From Candidatus Fermentithermobacillaceae bacterium (GTDB lineage Bacteria; Bacillota; Sulfobacillia; Fermentithermobacillales; DUSS01): a DNA stretch of 64,000 bases. Position 1 is the stretch's first letter, and the number at the start of each line of letters is the position of its first letter. The stretch covers positions 1-64,000 of the forward strand of contig JADBKE010000011.1 of the NCBI GenBank assembly GCA_014896535.1, given 5' to 3'. This document shows positions 4,298-10,608 of this stretch, piece after piece. A model generated the notes under the pieces. The model saw only the letters and a program-made list of their open reading frames with translations, did no database searches and was not told the origin of the DNA. Both the position numbers and the translations under genes were made by a program.

Positions 4298-5419
4298 ATG
4301 GGAAATGATTTGACGAACCGACCCACGGTTAAAGACCAGCTCGTGGCGAGACTTTCCTTGCTGGAGTTGAGATACGAAGAGGTTACGAGGGCGCTTGCCG
4401 ACCCCGAGGTTTTAGGGGATCCCGAGAGGTACATGGGGTTTGCCCGGGAACACGCCAGGCTTGAGGAGATCGTCACGCCATTCAGGCGATACAAAAAAGT
4501 CTTGGAGGAAATCGAAGAATCCGAAGGACTTTTGGAGACCGAGACCGACCCGGGCATACGCGAGCTCGCCAGAGAGGATCTCAAACGCCTGGAACGAGAG
4601 CGACACGAACTGGAAACCGAGTTGAAGCGCGCTCTCATCCCCGAGGATCCCAACGACCGGAAGCCCGTCATAATGGAAATCAGGGCGGGAACCGGCGGTG
4701 AAGAGGCGGCTCTTTTCGCCGCCGACCTGTTCCGAATGTACGGCCGGTACGCAGAAAGGCACGGCTTCAAGATGGAGGTGCTTTCGTCGAGCCCTACCGA
4801 TCTCGGCGGGCTGAAAGAGGTCATCTTTGCGATCGAAGGCAAAAGAGCCTGGAGCAGGCTTAAATACGAAGGTGGGGTTCACAGGGTTCAGAGGGTTCCC
4901 GTGACCGAATCTCAGGGCAGGATCCACACGTCCACCGCGACCGTCGCGGTCCTTCCCGAGGCGGAAGAGGTAGACGTCAAGATCGACCCGGACGACCTAC
5001 GCATAGATATTTTCTGTTCCTCAGGTCACGGCGGGCAAAGCGTGAACACCACGTATTCGGCGGTGAGGATCACCCACATTCCCACCGGAATAGTGGTGTC
5101 CTGTCAGGATGAGAGGTCTCAGCTTCAAAACAAGCAAAGGGCGATGAGGATCTTGAGGTCCAGGCTGAAGGCCCTCGCCGAGCAGGAGCAAAACCAGAGC
5201 ATAGCCCAGGCGAGGCGGGCCCAGGTCGGCACGGGGGAACGTTCGGAAAAGATCCGTACGTACAACTTCCCTCAAAACCGCGTGACCGATCACCGGATCG
5301 GGTTCACCTCGCATCGCCTGCAAGAGATCCTCGACGGGGACCTCGACGAGATTATCGATGCTCTCGTCGAAGAGGACCAAAAGAAGGCCATTCTGCAGGC
5401 GGCCGGGTTTTCGCGATGA
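4298..5419 (+). CDS. prfA: peptide chain release factor 1 (RF1)
   Basis: Class I release factor that reads UAA and UAG and triggers peptidyl-tRNA hydrolysis. The 373-residue length is close to the usual 355-360. The GGQ motif is at 245-247 in the context [16 protein letters not shown]. The stop-codon recognition tripeptide is P-V-T (in RVPVTESQ), the RF1-type PxT rather than the RF2 SPF. The N-terminal coiled-coil domain and the C-terminal QNRVTDHR motif are intact. The gene comes just before prmC, which methylates the GGQ glutamine. GGGAGGTG lies 12 nt before the ATG. Confidence 0.98.
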
Positions 5420-5484: not shown

Positions 5485-6429
5485 ATGAAAACCGTCGGTG
5501 AGATAGGATCGGTCGGACGCAAGCTGCTACGGGGCAGGACGGAGTATCCCGCCAGGGATGCGGCCGTGCTTCTCGGGCACGTACTCGGTAAAGGCAGCGA
5601 CTACGTCTACCTGCACCCGGAAGAACGGGTCCCGGAAGATGCCGAGCGCGAATACCTCGAACTCGTGGATAGGCGAAGCCGCGGTGAGCCGCTGGCTTAT
5701 CTCCGGGGATACCAGGAATTCATGGGGTTTCGCTTCAAAGTGGACAGGAGGGTGCTCATTCCCAGGCCCGAAACGGAGGTCCTGGTGGAAACCGCACAGA
5801 GAAGGCTCGCGATGATGCTGGGTTCGCGCCCGCGCGAAATCCCGAATTTAACACCGTCCCAACTCGGCCCCGCACCCGCCGACGAGTCACGCCTGACACC
5901 CAAGCTCCTCGTTGCCGACGTGTGTTGCGGCTCGGGCAACATCGGCATCTCTTTAGCAAAACTTCTGCCCGGTCTCATTGTGGTCGGGGTCGATATATCC
6001 CGTGATGCGCTTGACGTCGCTCGTGAAAACGCAGAGGCACTCGGAGTCGCCGACAGAGTGACCTTCGTGGAAGGCGACCTTTTCGAACCACTCGAACAGC
6101 TCGGGCTCGCAGGGCAGTTCGACGCCGTGACGGCGAATCCTCCCTACATTCCCGCCGAGACCCTTTCGCTTCTTCCGGCGGAAGTGCGGGACTTCGAGCC
6201 ACTCCAAGCCCTCGACGGCGGCCCGGGCGGGCTGCGGCTCATCCGGCGGGTGGTTTATGAGGCTCCCAGGTACCTGCGACCAGGCGGCGAGCTCTTCATG
6301 GAGATCGGTTTCGACCAAGCCGGCGTCGTACGGGAGTACTTTCGCGAAATGACTGCCGAGTATGACGACGTGACGACCGTGCTGGATTACGCGGGCCGGG
6401 AGAGACTGTTCGTGGCCAGAAAGCGGTAA
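5485..6429 (+). CDS. prmC: release factor glutamine N5-methyltransferase
   Basis: S-adenosylmethionine-dependent methyltransferase that modifies the GGQ glutamine of RF1 and RF2. It is 314 residues, slightly longer than usual because of a Pro-rich insert at about 110-138. The N-terminal helical domain ends in the GEPLAYLRGYQEFMG motif. The SAM-binding DVCCGSGN motif is at about 148-155, and the catalytic NPPY is at 218-221. It lies 65 nt downstream of prfA, which supplies its substrate. Confidence 0.97.
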   Translation: MKTVGEIGSVGRKLLRGRTEYPARDAAVLLGHVLGKGSDYVYLHPEERVPEDAEREYLELVDRRSRGEPLAYLRGYQEFMGFRFKVDRRVLIPRPETEVLVETAQRRLAMMLGSRPREIPNLTPSQLGPAPADESRLTPKLLVADVCCGSGNIGISLAKLLPGLIVVGVDISRDALDVARENAEALGVADRVTFVEGDLFEPLEQLGLAGQFDAVTANPPYIPAETLSLLPAEVRDFEPLQALDGGPGGLRLIRRVVYEAPRYLRPGGELFMEIGFDQAGVVREYFREMTAEYDDVTTVLDYAGRERLFVARKR

Positions 6430-6505: not shown

Positions 6506-8134
6506 GTGAGGTCGGAATTCATGAAGACAAGGGTCATCCAGGTTGATCCGGTCGAGCCCGACCCCAGGGCGGTAGAAGAAGCTGCCGCCGTTCTGCGGGG
6601 CGGGGGACTCGTTGCGTTTCCCACTGAAACCGTTTACGGACTCGGAGCGAACGCCCTGGACCCCGATGCGGTGACGGGCATATTCCGGGCCAAGGGAAGG
6701 CCCGCGGATAACCCCATTATTGTGCACGTTTCCAGACCCGAAATGCTCAGGCCTCTCGTGACGTCCGTGCCTCCCTCAGCCGAAAAACTCATTTTCCGAT
6801 TTTGGCCCGGACCCCTGACCTTGTTGTTTCCCAAGTCCACCGCGGTTCCGGACATCGTTACGGCGGGCCTCCCACGGGTGGCCATAAGAATGCCCGATCA
6901 TCCCGTAGCCCACTTGCTGATCGATGCCGCCCAGGTCCCGGTGGCTGCCCCTTCGGCCAACGTGTCCGGGAGACCGAGTCCTACATCCGCTTCAGACGTT
7001 CTCGAGGATCTGGATGGGAAGGTAGATGTCGTCCTGGACGGGGGTCCGTGCGAGATCGGCGTCGAATCGACCGTCCTCGACCTTTCCGGCGCGGTGCCGA
7101 GGATCCTGAGACCGGGGGGAATACCGAGGGAAGAGATTGCAGAAGCCCTGGGTGTGCCCGTGGAAGTTGTCTCAGCCGAAGGGGAAGTAGAAGGAGCTCC
7201 GCCGTCGCCGGGGATGAAATACCGCCACTATGCTCCGAGAGGAGAGATGTACCTCTTGAGCGGGCGACCCGAAGAACAAAGGGATACGGCGATTCAGCGG
7301 GCTGAAGAAATCCTCAAGAACGGCATGAGCGTGGCGGTGCTGAGCTCGTCTGAAAACGTTCCCGCTTACCTTGGGCTTAAAGAAAAGTTTCCCGGACTCT
7401 TCCACGTTATCGAACTGGGGCCGCGCTCTGACCCTGCGAAAATCGCTTCCAGACTGTTTTCGAGCATACGGTGGGCAGATAAACTCGGGGCGTCCGTAAT
7501 ACTCTCCGAGTCCTTCGATGAGTCAGGACTGGGTCTGGCCATCGCTAACAGACTCACGAAAGCCTCGGGAGGCAAGATTCTTCCGCCGGCGAGTGCCCAC
7601 CCTTTAACGGTGCTCTTTGTTTGTACGGGGAACACCTGCAGAAGCCCGATGGCGGAAGCGCTGTTGAGGAAGGTGTGGACAGACCGCGGTGCTCCCCGGG
7701 ACCTGCGCGTCTTTTCTCGCGGCACCGGAGCTCTTCCAGGCATACCTGCGGCACGCGAAGCTCAGGCGGTGATGAAGAAACGGGGAGTGGATATGTCGGG
7801 GCATGTCTCGATGCCTCTTCTCCCCTCCGATGTAGAGTCTTCCGATATCATCGTGGCCATGACCAAGGCTCACAAAGAAGCGATCCTGTCCAGGTTCCCG
7901 ACAGCTCAGGGGAAGACGTTTACCCTCCAGGAGCTCGCGGGGGAGGTTGTTCCTGGGGACGTACCGGATCCTCTGGGCCGGGGAGAGCAAGCTTACGAGG
8001 AAACGGCGGCCTTGTTAGAGAAGGCGCTTGAATTGGTCGTTCCGAAGCTGCTGACACATCCCGCGTTGCCGAAGGAACAGGGGGACAGATCCGCTTCCGG
8101 AAGATCTGCTTCCGGAAGATCTGCCTCCGGATAA
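6506..8134 (+). CDS. Sua5/TsaC-type threonylcarbamoyl-AMP synthase fused to a low-MW protein phosphatase
   Basis: One uninterrupted 542-codon frame encodes two enzymes. Residues about 10-205 are a YrdC domain (KGRPADNPIIVH, PSANVSG motifs) and about 210-345 a Sua5 C-terminal domain. Together these make threonylcarbamoyl-AMP for tRNA t6A37. Residues about 370-520 are a low-molecular-weight tyrosine/arginine phosphatase (YwlE type), with the CX5R loop C373-T-G-N-T-C-R379 followed by SPMAEAL, and the general-acid DP in VPDPLGRG. In Bacillus, ywlC and ywlE are separate genes close together. The C-terminus ends in three RSASG repeats. No stop codon or internal start interrupts the join; each half looks catalytically intact. 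Confidence 0.92.
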   Translation: MRSEFMKTRVIQVDPVEPDPRAVEEAAAVLRGGGLVAFPTETVYGLGANALDPDAVTGIFRAKGRPADNPIIVHVSRPEMLRPLVTSVPPSAEKLIFRFWPGPLTLLFPKSTAVPDIVTAGLPRVAIRMPDHPVAHLLIDAAQVPVAAPSANVSGRPSPTSASDVLEDLDGKVDVVLDGGPCEIGVESTVLDLSGAVPRILRPGGIPREEIAEALGVPVEVVSAEGEVEGAPPSPGMKYRHYAPRGEMYLLSGRPEEQRDTAIQRAEEILKNGMSVAVLSSSENVPAYLGLKEKFPGLFHVIELGPRSDPAKIASRLFSSIRWADKLGASVILSESFDESGLGLAIANRLTKASGGKILPPASAHPLTVLFVCTGNTCRSPMAEALLRKVWTDRGAPRDLRVFSRGTGALPGIPAAREAQAVMKKRGVDMSGHVSMPLLPSDVESSDIIVAMTKAHKEAILSRFPTAQGKTFTLQELAGEVVPGDVPDPLGRGEQAYEETAALLEKALELVVPKLLTHPALPKEQGDRSASGRSASGRSASG

Positions 8135-8271: not shown

Positions 8272-9453
8272 ATGAGGAAGATAGACGAAGCTACGGCGCT
8301 GGCCGCGATTTGGGGTGGGGCGGTCCTGGGAGGGGGCGGAGGAGGCGACCCTCGAGCGGGTTGGGCCATGGCCCGTGCTGCGCTTTTAAGCGGCGAAGTC
8401 ATGTTGGCGACGGTGGACGAAATCGACCCTGCGAAAACCGTTGTTACCGTCGCAATGGTCGGTTCTCCTAAAGCCGGAGGCATGGGGCCCGAACCTCCTC
8501 ATTACTTAGATGCGGTCAGGTTCTTGGCTCGAGCAGGAAACGTTGCCCCGGAAGTTCTGAACTCTAACGAAACCGGCGGCTTTGCCGTAGTTAACGGCTG
8601 GTATCAAGCCGCCTGCCTCGGAATCCCGGTGCTGGATGCGCCCTGCAACGGACGCGCCCATCCGACGGCACTCATGGGAGCGATGGGGCTACACCGGGTG
8701 GAAGGATATGTTTCAAAGCAAGCCTGTAAAGGGAAAAACCTGCTGGCGTACGCTGAGGGTTCGATTCAAGAAGCATCATCGTTAATCCGGTCCGCAGCAG
8801 CCGCGGAAGGCCTCGTGGCGGTAGCGCGCAATCCGGTCTCCTGCGGATATGTTCGGGAACACGGAGCGCCCGGAGCGATCTCAATGGCCATCGAACTTGG
8901 GATAACCATGGCGCGCGAGGTTCGCGATGCGCTGGGGATCGAGCCTCTCGAACCCCGCTTCGTAGGGGGTCTTCCAGAAGATCTGGGGACAGGCGCCAGC
9001 CGGCGATGCCAGCCCGGGTTGGTTGCAGCAGAAGCCGTCGCCCGATCCCTCGGCGGACGCTTGCTTCCTCCGGGGACGGTCACCGGCGTCGAGCTTAACA
9101 CCGAAGGCGGGTTCGACAGGGGCTGGGTCGTCGTGGAGGAGGCGGATTCCGGCAACGGTTACAGGGTTAAGATCGCGTTTGTAAACGAGTATTTGGCGGC
9201 CACTGATGCCGCAGGTGCGCTTTTAGCAGTCTATCCAGACCTCATCGTACTCTTCGACGTGGGTACCGGCTGGCCGGTGAGCTCTGCCGACCTCTGCCGG
9301 GGCCGGACGGTGGTTCCCTTGTTTTGCCCGGCCCGAAATATCCTCCTTGGCGCGGGGGCGGTGGATAAGGAGCTCTACGAGCCTCTCCTGCGCGATCTTG
9401 GGGTGCCGGTGCCCGGGGCTACCCAGGACGGCCCGGGGTCGGCGCAGGAGTGA
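8272..9453 (+). CDS. DUF917 family protein
   Basis: A 393-residue member of the DUF917 family; some members of the wider group are annotated as hydantoinase-related or thiohydantoin desulfurase proteins, but the substrate here cannot be told. Family marks are the N-terminal Gly-rich run (VLGGGGGGDP) at about 18-27, the motif KAGGMGPEPP near 65, and DAPCNGRAHP near 125, which probably forms part of the active site. A C-terminal domain starts near 260. A strong ribosome binding site (GGAGAGGGGTG) precedes the ATG. It interrupts an otherwise conserved housekeeping order between the Sua5/YwlE functions and rpiB, and ends four bases inside the open frame that carries rpiB. Confidence 0.85.
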   Translation: MRKIDEATALAAIWGGAVLGGGGGGDPRAGWAMARAALLSGEVMLATVDEIDPAKTVVTVAMVGSPKAGGMGPEPPHYLDAVRFLARAGNVAPEVLNSNETGGFAVVNGWYQAACLGIPVLDAPCNGRAHPTALMGAMGLHRVEGYVSKQACKGKNLLAYAEGSIQEASSLIRSAAAAEGLVAVARNPVSCGYVREHGAPGAISMAIELGITMAREVRDALGIEPLEPRFVGGLPEDLGTGASRRCQPGLVAAEAVARSLGGRLLPPGTVTGVELNTEGGFDRGWVVVEEADSGNGYRVKIAFVNEYLAATDAAGALLAVYPDLIVLFDVGTGWPVSSADLCRGRTVVPLFCPARNILLGAGAVDKELYEPLLRDLGVPVPGATQDGPGSAQE

Positions 9454-9518
9454 CCGATCTTGGGCCGCGTTGGTGCTTCGAGCAGCCGGGTAGGGTTCGG
9501 AAGGAGGCGCGATCGCAC

Positions 9519-9986
9519 GTGAAAATCGCCATAGCCGCAGATCACGCCGGGTTTCGTTTGAAGGAGAAAATCAAAGAGTATCTCGCTTCCGCCGGTTATC
9601 AGGTACAGGACTTCGGAACTTCCAGCGAAGATCCCGTCGATTACCCCGACTTCGGCCTGACGGCGGCTTCCGCTGTGATGAACGGAAGCTGTGATCTAGG
9701 TATACTCGTATGTGGGACAGGCCTGGGTATGGCCATCGCCGCCAATAAAATCCCTGGCATCAGAGCGGTGACGTGCAGCGATACCTTTTCCGCGAGATCG
9801 TCCAGGGAGCACAACGATGCCAACGTCCTGTGTCTTGGCGCCAGGGTAATCGGCGAGGGCCTGGCCATGGATATCGTCAAAGTGTGGCTCAGCTCGAGTT
9901 TCCAAGGAGGGAGACACGAGCGGCGGGTGAACAAGATTCGTGAGATCGAGGGCAGGTACTTCGGGGGGCGAGGAGACGGTGGATAA
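9519..9986 (+). CDS. rpiB: ribose 5-phosphate isomerase B
   Basis: Interconverts ribose 5-phosphate and ribulose 5-phosphate in the pentose phosphate pathway. The 155-residue protein carries the family start (MKIAIAADHAGF), the active-site Cys in GILVCGTGLGMAIAANK, and the SREHNDANVL motif. The GTG start at 9519 is preferred to the frame opening at 9450 because AAGGAGG precedes it by about 11 nt and homologues begin with KIAIA. It overlaps the YwlG gene by 8 nt, which suggests coupled translation. Confidence 0.95.
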   Translation: MKIAIAADHAGFRLKEKIKEYLASAGYQVQDFGTSSEDPVDYPDFGLTAASAVMNGSCDLGILVCGTGLGMAIAANKIPGIRAVTCSDTFSARSSREHNDANVLCLGARVIGEGLAMDIVKVWLSSSFQGGRHERRVNKIREIEGRYFGGRGDGG

Positions 9987-10608
9987 TCAGGACTTCGAGA
10001 AGTTGAGGGAAGAGGTCAAACGGCAGACGAGGGAAGCCACAGTTTCCCTGCTGCAAGTTGCCAGGCTGAAGCCCGGTCAAATCCTGGTGCTCGGGTGCTC
10101 CACCAGCGAGGTGCTGGGTCACCGCATCGGATCGGCCTCGAACGTGGGAATTGCCCAGGCGATCCTTGAGGGAATCGAGGAAGCGCTGAAAGGAACTGGT
10201 GTCCACCTGGCGGTTCAGTGCTGCGAGCACCTCAACAGGGCTCTGGTGGTGGAAGAGGAGACCGCCGAGAAATACGGGCTGACCGAGGTAACGGTGCTTC
10301 CCGTACCCCATGCTGGGGGAGCTGCTGCTGCGACGGCGTTGAGGAGATTCAAGCACCCGGTAGTAGTGGAATCCATTCAGGCTCACGCCGGGATCGACAT
10401 AGGGGATACGCTCATCGGGATGCATTTGCGCCCGGTGGCGGTTCCGGTCCGCTCGGAGATCAAAAGGATAGGCCAAGCCAACCTGGTTATGGCGCGCACA
10501 AGGCCCAAGCTCATCGGAGGCAAGCGGGCCGTTTACGCCTGGGATGAGGTAGAAGAAAGGTTTGGCAAGAGTGCACCGCCAGCCGAGGAAAGCCCGGGCA
10601 AGTGCTGA
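9979..10608 (+). CDS. ywlG: TIGR01440/UPF0340 (YwlG) family protein
   Basis: A conserved Firmicutes family of unknown function, usually next to rpiB and glyA. The 209-residue protein shows the family motifs LVLGCSTSEVLGHRIG, CCEHLNRALV and QAHAGIDIGDTLIGMHLRPVAVP. No membrane segment or signal peptide is present. GTG 9979 is chosen as start: it follows a GGGGGGCGAGGAG stretch and overlaps the end of rpiB. glyA and upp, common neighbours in Bacillus, are absent here. Confidence 0.92.
   Translation: MDNQDFEKLREEVKRQTREATVSLLQVARLKPGQILVLGCSTSEVLGHRIGSASNVGIAQAILEGIEEALKGTGVHLAVQCCEHLNRALVVEEETAEKYGLTEVTVLPVPHAGGAAAATALRRFKHPVVVESIQAHAGIDIGDTLIGMHLRPVAVPVRSEIKRIGQANLVMARTRPKLIGGKRAVYAWDEVEERFGKSAPPAEESPGKC

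Follow-up and report, generated by a model that had tools for sequence, protein, structure and literature searches.

Can a tRNA-modification enzyme and a protein phosphatase be made as one polypeptide, and does it matter to the cell that they are? The question is raised by one gene in a window of 64,000 nucleotides (the whole stretch of DNA that was analysed, from a Candidatus Fermentithermobacillaceae bacterium), which joins Sua5, the enzyme for the first step of tRNA t6A synthesis, to a low-molecular-weight phosphatase (LMWP). Answering it requires that the joint be real, that the phosphatase be identified, and that the fused and unfused forms be compared among relatives.

The fusion gene and its domains

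The features of the locus are listed below.

4298..5419, + strand: prfA, upstream neighbour (TIGR00019)
5485..6429, + strand: prmC, upstream neighbour (TIGR03534)
6506..8134, + strand: predicted Sua5-YwlE fusion gene, one open frame (Pfam and NCBIfam domain matches)
6590..7117, + strand: TsaC/YrdC-like TC-AMP synthase domain, aa 29-204, with K63/R65 and S150/N152 (PF01300, TIGR00057, alignment)
7121..7570, + strand: SUA5 domain, aa 206-355 (PF03481; Foldseek to P. abyssi Sua5 6f87/6f89)
7571..7609, + strand: short interdomain linker, aa 356-368, without internal ATG (domain bounds and junction reading)
7610..8029, + strand: low-molecular-weight phosphatase domain, most likely of YwlE type, aa 369-508 (PF01451; YwlE 4pic/4kk3)
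7622..7645, + strand: P-loop C373-T-G-N-T377-C-R379-S, T377 being the putative pArg-selecting position (alignment; consulted part of PMC8001253)
7967..7972, + strand: predicted general-acid Asp-Pro, D488-P489 (alignment; role of Asp from the consulted part of PMC8001253)
8087..8149, + strand: 15-bp tandem repeat, 4.2 copies, coding for a disordered (R)SASG tail and extending past the stop (repeat search; model)
8272..9453, + strand: S-methyl-thiohydantoin-desulfurase-like protein, between the fusion and rpiB (PF06032/PF20906; NCBIfam matches below cut-off)
9450..9986, + strand: rpiB (ywlF) (TIGR01120)
9940..10608, + strand: ywlG, DUF436/TIGR01440 (Pfam and NCBIfam)

The initial annotation had proposed a single uninterrupted gene with both active-site motifs intact, and both points were borne out. 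The frame, read from a GTG start, encodes 542 aa without any internal stop codon, and carries three Pfam domains in order, Sua5_yciO_yrdC (PF01300, aa 29-204, E 7.5e-62), Sua5_C (PF03481, aa 206-355, E 2.5e-29) and LMWPc (PF01451, aa 369-508, E 6.5e-34); TIGR00057 also matched above its cut-off. An in-frame ATG at 6521, five codons on and with GAGG 9 nt upstream, may be the true start, and would give a protein of 537 aa. Judged from sequence only, the N-terminal part has the attributes of a Sua5-type TC-AMP synthase, namely a TsaC-like domain followed by a SUA5 domain and the KxR/SxN active-site motif that the consulted part of PMC10321239 names for these synthases. The C-terminal part has those of a YwlE-type enzyme, with an LMW-PTP fold, a C(X)4CR(S/T) P-loop and DP acid, Thr at position 5 of the loop, and McsB in the genome. 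In alignment A1, whose 14 fusions were picked for intact motifs, K63, R65, S150 and N152 are invariant, as are C373, G375, N376, T377, C378, R379, S380, D488 and P489. We therefore take it as confirmed, at the level of sequence, that the gene encodes a complete Sua5 and a complete LMWP, and both enzymatic activities would be expected of its product. The fusion is the sole Sua5 match and the sole LMWPc match over cut-off in its own genome (92.6% complete).

The AlphaFold model of the fusion (pTM 0.69, domain orientation without confidence) aligned with P. abyssi Sua5 6f87/6f89 at TMt 0.95/0.93 in Foldseek. The solved Sua5 proteins, from Pyrococcus abyssi (6f87/6f89), Sulfolobus tokodaii (2eqa/3aje) and Thermotoga maritima (TsaC2, 9d3h), share with it the TsaC-like and SUA5 domains over about aa 1-360 and the motifs, at Foldseek identities of 38-46%; however, they end after the SUA5 domain, whereas in the window protein the phosphatase begins within 13 residues. 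Similarly, YwlE (B. subtilis 1zgg/4kk3, G. stearothermophilus 4pic) and S. aureus PtpB are alike in fold, CTGNTCRS P-loop, DP motif and a genome with McsB, but these occur as free-standing enzymes of some 150 aa, while the window domain lies C-terminal to Sua5. TsaN (TsaD-TsaC-SUA5-TcdA, 8ide) is likewise a natural fusion of Sua5 with t6A-pathway parts, although by its PDB title the joined parts are TsaD and TcdA and a phosphatase is not named. HypF and TobZ also place a TsaC/YrdC-like domain in a multidomain protein, but serve carbamoylation with a Kae1-like partner domain and not t6A, according to the consulted parts of PMC10321239 and PMC9654439. Sua5 and YwlE are each well-known families; we found no paper on their fusion in the open-licence PMC literature, the consulted parts of those two articles included.

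Continuity of the junction and origin of the fusion

The initial annotation had also raised a possible frameshift at about 7590. We searched 41 genomes of relatives, 17 of the same order and 24 others of the class. A match was found in 15 of the 17, and the genes were fused in all 15 (L001-L012, G004, G006, G015), among them the complete chromosome CP062796.1 of Ca. Fermentithermobacillus carboniphilus; the genome search gave no match in G013 and G016. Because the frame crosses the junction in 15/15 matching genomes, one of them a closed chromosome, a frameshift or assembly error was ruled out and the fusion is not a sequencing artefact.

In the rest of the class, 11 loci were read in the 24 genomes; one was fused (G023) and 10 were separate. 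The initial annotation had described the two functions as neighbouring genes in Bacillus, and they are neighbours in most outgroups read. Seven of the 10 separate pairs abut or overlap by ≤11 bases: sua5 and ywlE overlap by 4 nt in G024, G032, G036 and G037, by 1 nt in G040 and by 11 nt in G030, and in G025 they abut in frame with the stop codon alone between them. The overlap in G029 is ∼14-23 nt, depending on the choice of start, and a gap separates the genes in G019 and G039. The simplest route to the fusion would be removal of a stop codon, as G025 would need, or of a frame break, between genes that lie side by side, often with overlapping ends, in an old operon, prfA-prmC-sua5-ywlE-rpiB-ywlG.

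Such an arrangement also suits an explanation without functional coupling, in which operon neighbours were joined at no cost and the domains work independently: where the ends abut or overlap, loss of a stop or frame break could join the genes repeatedly. Fusion linkers that vary from 3 to 65 aa are consistent with this reading. Against it stand the presence of the fusion in every matching genome of the order together with its recurrence elsewhere, and the printed link of YwlE to the t6A enzyme TsaD (PMC7546277, consulted in part). We give neutral joining somewhat less than an even chance, and prefer, with modest confidence, a bifunctional Sua5 and pArg phosphatase that arose by joining of operon neighbours and couples TC-AMP synthesis to TsaD protection. 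The fusion may also place the two functions under shared control or at one location, as the initial annotation had supposed.

In the genus of the window (L001-L003) the former ywlE start has no ATG. In L007, L008 and L009 an in-frame ATG is kept there, with a purine-rich stretch upstream, and thus free phosphatase might also be translated in these three.

Spread of fused and separate forms

The architecture is found more than once, in Fermentithermobacillia, in Lachnospiraceae and in some 'Clostridiaceae' MAGs. Among the best 80 loci of a scan of named genomes plus 12 relatives (92 loci), 33 fusions and 36 separate pairs were counted, and at the other 23 the fetched stretch contained no LMWP; of the 33 fusions, L013 and L014 are duplicates (same contigs as L004 and L007) and L023 is unsafe, because two undetermined bases (N) lie in its linker. 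L020, the sister of L023, is unfused. The best-80 list was ranked by similarity to the whole fusion and hence over-represents fusions. We also drew 90 genomes evenly from the family of G060 (the same genome as L034), Muricomes intestini, a Lachnospiraceae, being among them. Open-frame length was dropped as a flag of fusion and the ORFs were read instead, which gave 6 fusions in the draw, where the sua5 region was read for 86 genomes.

On a Sua5 tree of 141 rows, built by a quick method without bootstrap, the fusion label has to change 12 times, and supported branches force at least 5 of these changes; without L023 the number is 11, with still at least 5 on supported branches. The tree does not tell gains from losses of fusion. 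A one-off fusion is ruled out by the at least 5 supported label changes.

Assignment of the phosphatase

The P-loop reads C-T-G-N-T-C-R-S, and position 5 is Thr. According to the consulted part of PMC8001253, Thr at this position selects pArg and Ile selects pTyr. The top Foldseek matches of the modelled phosphatase domain are the YwlE structures 4pic and 4kk3 (TMt 0.88/0.94), and its nearest solved relatives by sequence are 4egs and YwlE structures. We noted that 4egs, an LMWP of T. tengcongensis and the best PDB sequence match, was deposited under the name RpiB. This naming hints at a fusion of LMWP with the other operon neighbour elsewhere, which would suit neutral joining; we looked for such an LMWP-RpiB fusion and obtained no confirmation.

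The window genome itself has an McsB match with an NEEDH loop, set in an intact operon of the order ctsR-mcsA-mcsB-clpC (ctsR, mcsA and clpC being identified from their frames by eye), and McsB is present in 17/17 genomes of the order. The domain is thus most likely a YwlE-type protein-arginine phosphatase. The initial annotation had left its substrate as protein arginine or tyrosine; we favour the arginine half, because of the Thr at position 5, the intact McsB, and the co-degeneration with McsB described below, all of which indicate pArg rather than pTyr as the probable substrate.

Co-degeneration of the phosphatase and McsB

We tabulated the phosphatase at sua5, fused or separate, against the state of McsB in 133 clostridial genomes, with L023 counted as fused. 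McsB was called intact at ≤4 substitutions, a threshold fixed after the distribution had been seen, over 40 sites invariant in 20 reference McsBs. Among 29 genomes with a canonical P-loop, McsB was intact in 26, or 27 counting L035, whose McsB is partly masked; in L017 and G098 the phosphatase is canonical and two McsB profiles found no McsB. The other 104 genomes comprise 55 with the Cys or Arg lost, 7 with an altered loop keeping both, and 42 counted as absent because the region fetched around sua5 showed no phosphatase (the remainder of the genome was checked for G116 alone, which has an LMWP away from sua5). McsB was intact in 0 of these 104, degenerate in 23 and not found in 81.

The 30 Lachnospiraceae-type McsBs divide in the same way: the 7 with a canonical phosphatase next to them carry 1-3 substitutions at the 40 sites, compared with 6-19 in the 23 whose neighbouring phosphatase is non-canonical or missing. 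In the latter (L099-L101, L151-L170) invariant sites are lost and the NEED loop is often broken, NEEDH frequently being changed to NGDDH or similar, so that these homologues are likely pseudokinases; the NEED loop is taken to have the role in McsB that it has in guanidino kinases. The consulted literature, including the available part of PMC8370763, held nothing useful on McsB catalytic residues. When reference McsBs were left out one at a time, they differed at 0-4 sites, except for 17 in the window's own; these 17 would correspond to 17 N-terminal columns that are gaps in the fetched references (57 versus 40 sites).

Searches with PF00217 and NF002194 gave no match in the B. subtilis control, though the literature works on its McsB, and we therefore repeated the search with our own profile A4. 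This profile again found McsB in 24 draw genomes, the same ones as before, added a weak fragment of 98 positions in G171, gave no match in the 23 named negatives and matched both positive controls. After correction for the tree the support was thin: on supported branches 5 independent pairs remained, of which 4 agree and 0 disagree (p 0.125, not significant); without L023 there were 3 pairs, ∼2 agreeing and 0 disagreeing (p 0.5, not significant). Left out of the 133 were 7 of the 57 LMWP-bearing loci (L019, L031, L048, L050, L053, L089, L091), L046 (McsB truncated where the contig ends), G060 and G079 (duplicates of the L034 and L060 genomes), G091 and G096 (partial match, region not fetched), and G129 and G134 (no Sua5 match).

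These counts bear on whether the domain could be a phosphatase of tyrosine or small molecules that has nothing to do with McsB. The canonical loops of L017 and G098, with McsB not found, are what such an enzyme would leave; however, position 5 is Thr and not Ile, and intact McsB accompanies 26 of 29 canonical phosphatases (27 with L035) versus 0 of 104 non-canonical or absent ones, so that we consider this reading improbable. Taken as an arginine phosphatase, the enzyme at sua5 would be McsB's partner, to which the co-degeneration points. Because unfused pairs co-degenerate with McsB as well, as neutral joining would also have it, the pattern identifies the phosphatase and does not show that the fusion matters. 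The co-degeneration also suggests that sequence could be used to predict in which bacteria arginine phosphorylation of the McsB type is still in use.

Degenerate phosphatase domains retained on Sua5

In many Lachnospiraceae the LMWP beside or fused to Sua5 is without the P-loop Cys or Arg. Among fusions in the 133-genome table, 18 of 25 are without a canonical P-loop (16 with Cys or Arg lost, 2 with an altered loop and both kept), and intact McsB is found with 0 of these 18. The remainder of the domain appears to be kept. The block SRG.VVLF.EP.N.KAE (residues 392-412 of L034) is common to Lachnospiraceae-type LMWPs, even with a destroyed P-loop, and in alignment A2 (15 rows, 14 non-canonical) eight of its residues, G394, V396, V397, F399, E401, P402, N404 and K406 of L034, are invariant. 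Pairs of non-canonical domains, with dS close to saturation, gave a dN/dS of 0.06-0.16 in 6 cases out of 7, the seventh not being computable, versus 0.10-0.25 in 6 pairs of live domains. The dead fusion L034 yields a confident model (pLDDT 86.9), whose phosphatase domain matches YwlE. On these alignments the domain of the eighteen fusions with a lost canonical active site is still constrained, and a putative conserved pseudophosphatase is marked in a number of Lachnospiraceae, attached to their TC-AMP synthase.

Such constraint would be expected if the LMWP domain were a structural or protein-binding part of Sua5 or of t6A synthesis, its catalysis being secondary and the domain a pseudophosphatase in Lachnospiraceae that have no McsB. 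The 18 non-canonical fusions, the invariant eight-residue block, the dN/dS values and the L034 model all favour this. Nevertheless, the same block is present in unfused and live relatives and need not be tied to fusion or to loss of activity; moreover, in 42 of 84 draw genomes no LMWP could be recognised in the region fetched around sua5, and G116 carries one elsewhere, hence the domain is dispensable at that place. We regard a structural role as rather unlikely. A combined form is about equally doubtful: the YwlE fold would have a second, non-catalytic t6A role, having been recruited repeatedly by docking on the TC-AMP/TsaD machinery and retained as a pseudophosphatase after loss of McsB and the active site, and in the window organism this docking would deliver arginine dephosphorylation to TsaD.

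Possible coupling to t6A synthesis through TsaD

Sua5 makes TC-AMP, which is consumed by TsaD in the established t6A pathway. The initial annotation held that no link between t6A and arginine dephosphorylation was established, yet one is in print for TsaD of B. subtilis. By the consulted part of PMC7546277, this protein is Arg-phosphorylated at R282, and McsB, YwlE and ClpCP set its stability, which is lowered by loss of YwlE; loss of McsB or ClpC, or the change R282K, stabilises it. In the open-licence PMC literature we found no paper naming both the YdiB/TsaE kinase and YwlE.

In the bifunctional reading that we prefer, the N-terminal two thirds (TsaC-like and SUA5 domains) are predicted to be the cell's TC-AMP synthase for t6A, and the C-terminal third a YwlE-type phosphatase that strips McsB-added phosphate from protein arginines, by which marked proteins would be rescued from ClpCP. 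Since Sua5 makes TC-AMP for TsaD and YwlE protects TsaD in B. subtilis, a single chain could match the supply of TC-AMP to the protection of TsaD, and this would be its benefit. By analogy with B. subtilis, TsaD is a possible target of the phosphatase in the window organism, although we hold this only tentatively.

TsaD, a TsaB candidate and TsaE of the window genome lie on the same contig. Among 29 TsaD rows (L123, L145 and L146 were disregarded, having been read in the wrong frame), the Arg of GGVxxNxxLR is present in the window genome's own TsaD and also in TsaDs where McsB is absent, so this residue does not discriminate. It is probably R282 of B. subtilis TsaD, by its spacing in three rows (271, 270 and 273 residues). 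The single-chain protein would fix two activities in one molecule and offers a handle for asking whether arginine phosphorylation of proteins tunes decoding by way of t6A, for which bacteria with phosphatase and McsB broken together are natural controls.

Gene neighbourhood and C-terminal repeat

The gene order in the window resembles the ywl order of Bacillus, with ywlD replaced. A similar S-methyl-thiohydantoin-desulfurase-like frame was seen by eye 3′ of the fusion in L003 and L004. The last ∼20 residues of the fusion protein have pLDDT <40 in the AlphaFold model; among genus relatives, the 15-bp repeat that encodes the (R)SASG tail is missing from L003 and present as one copy in L002.
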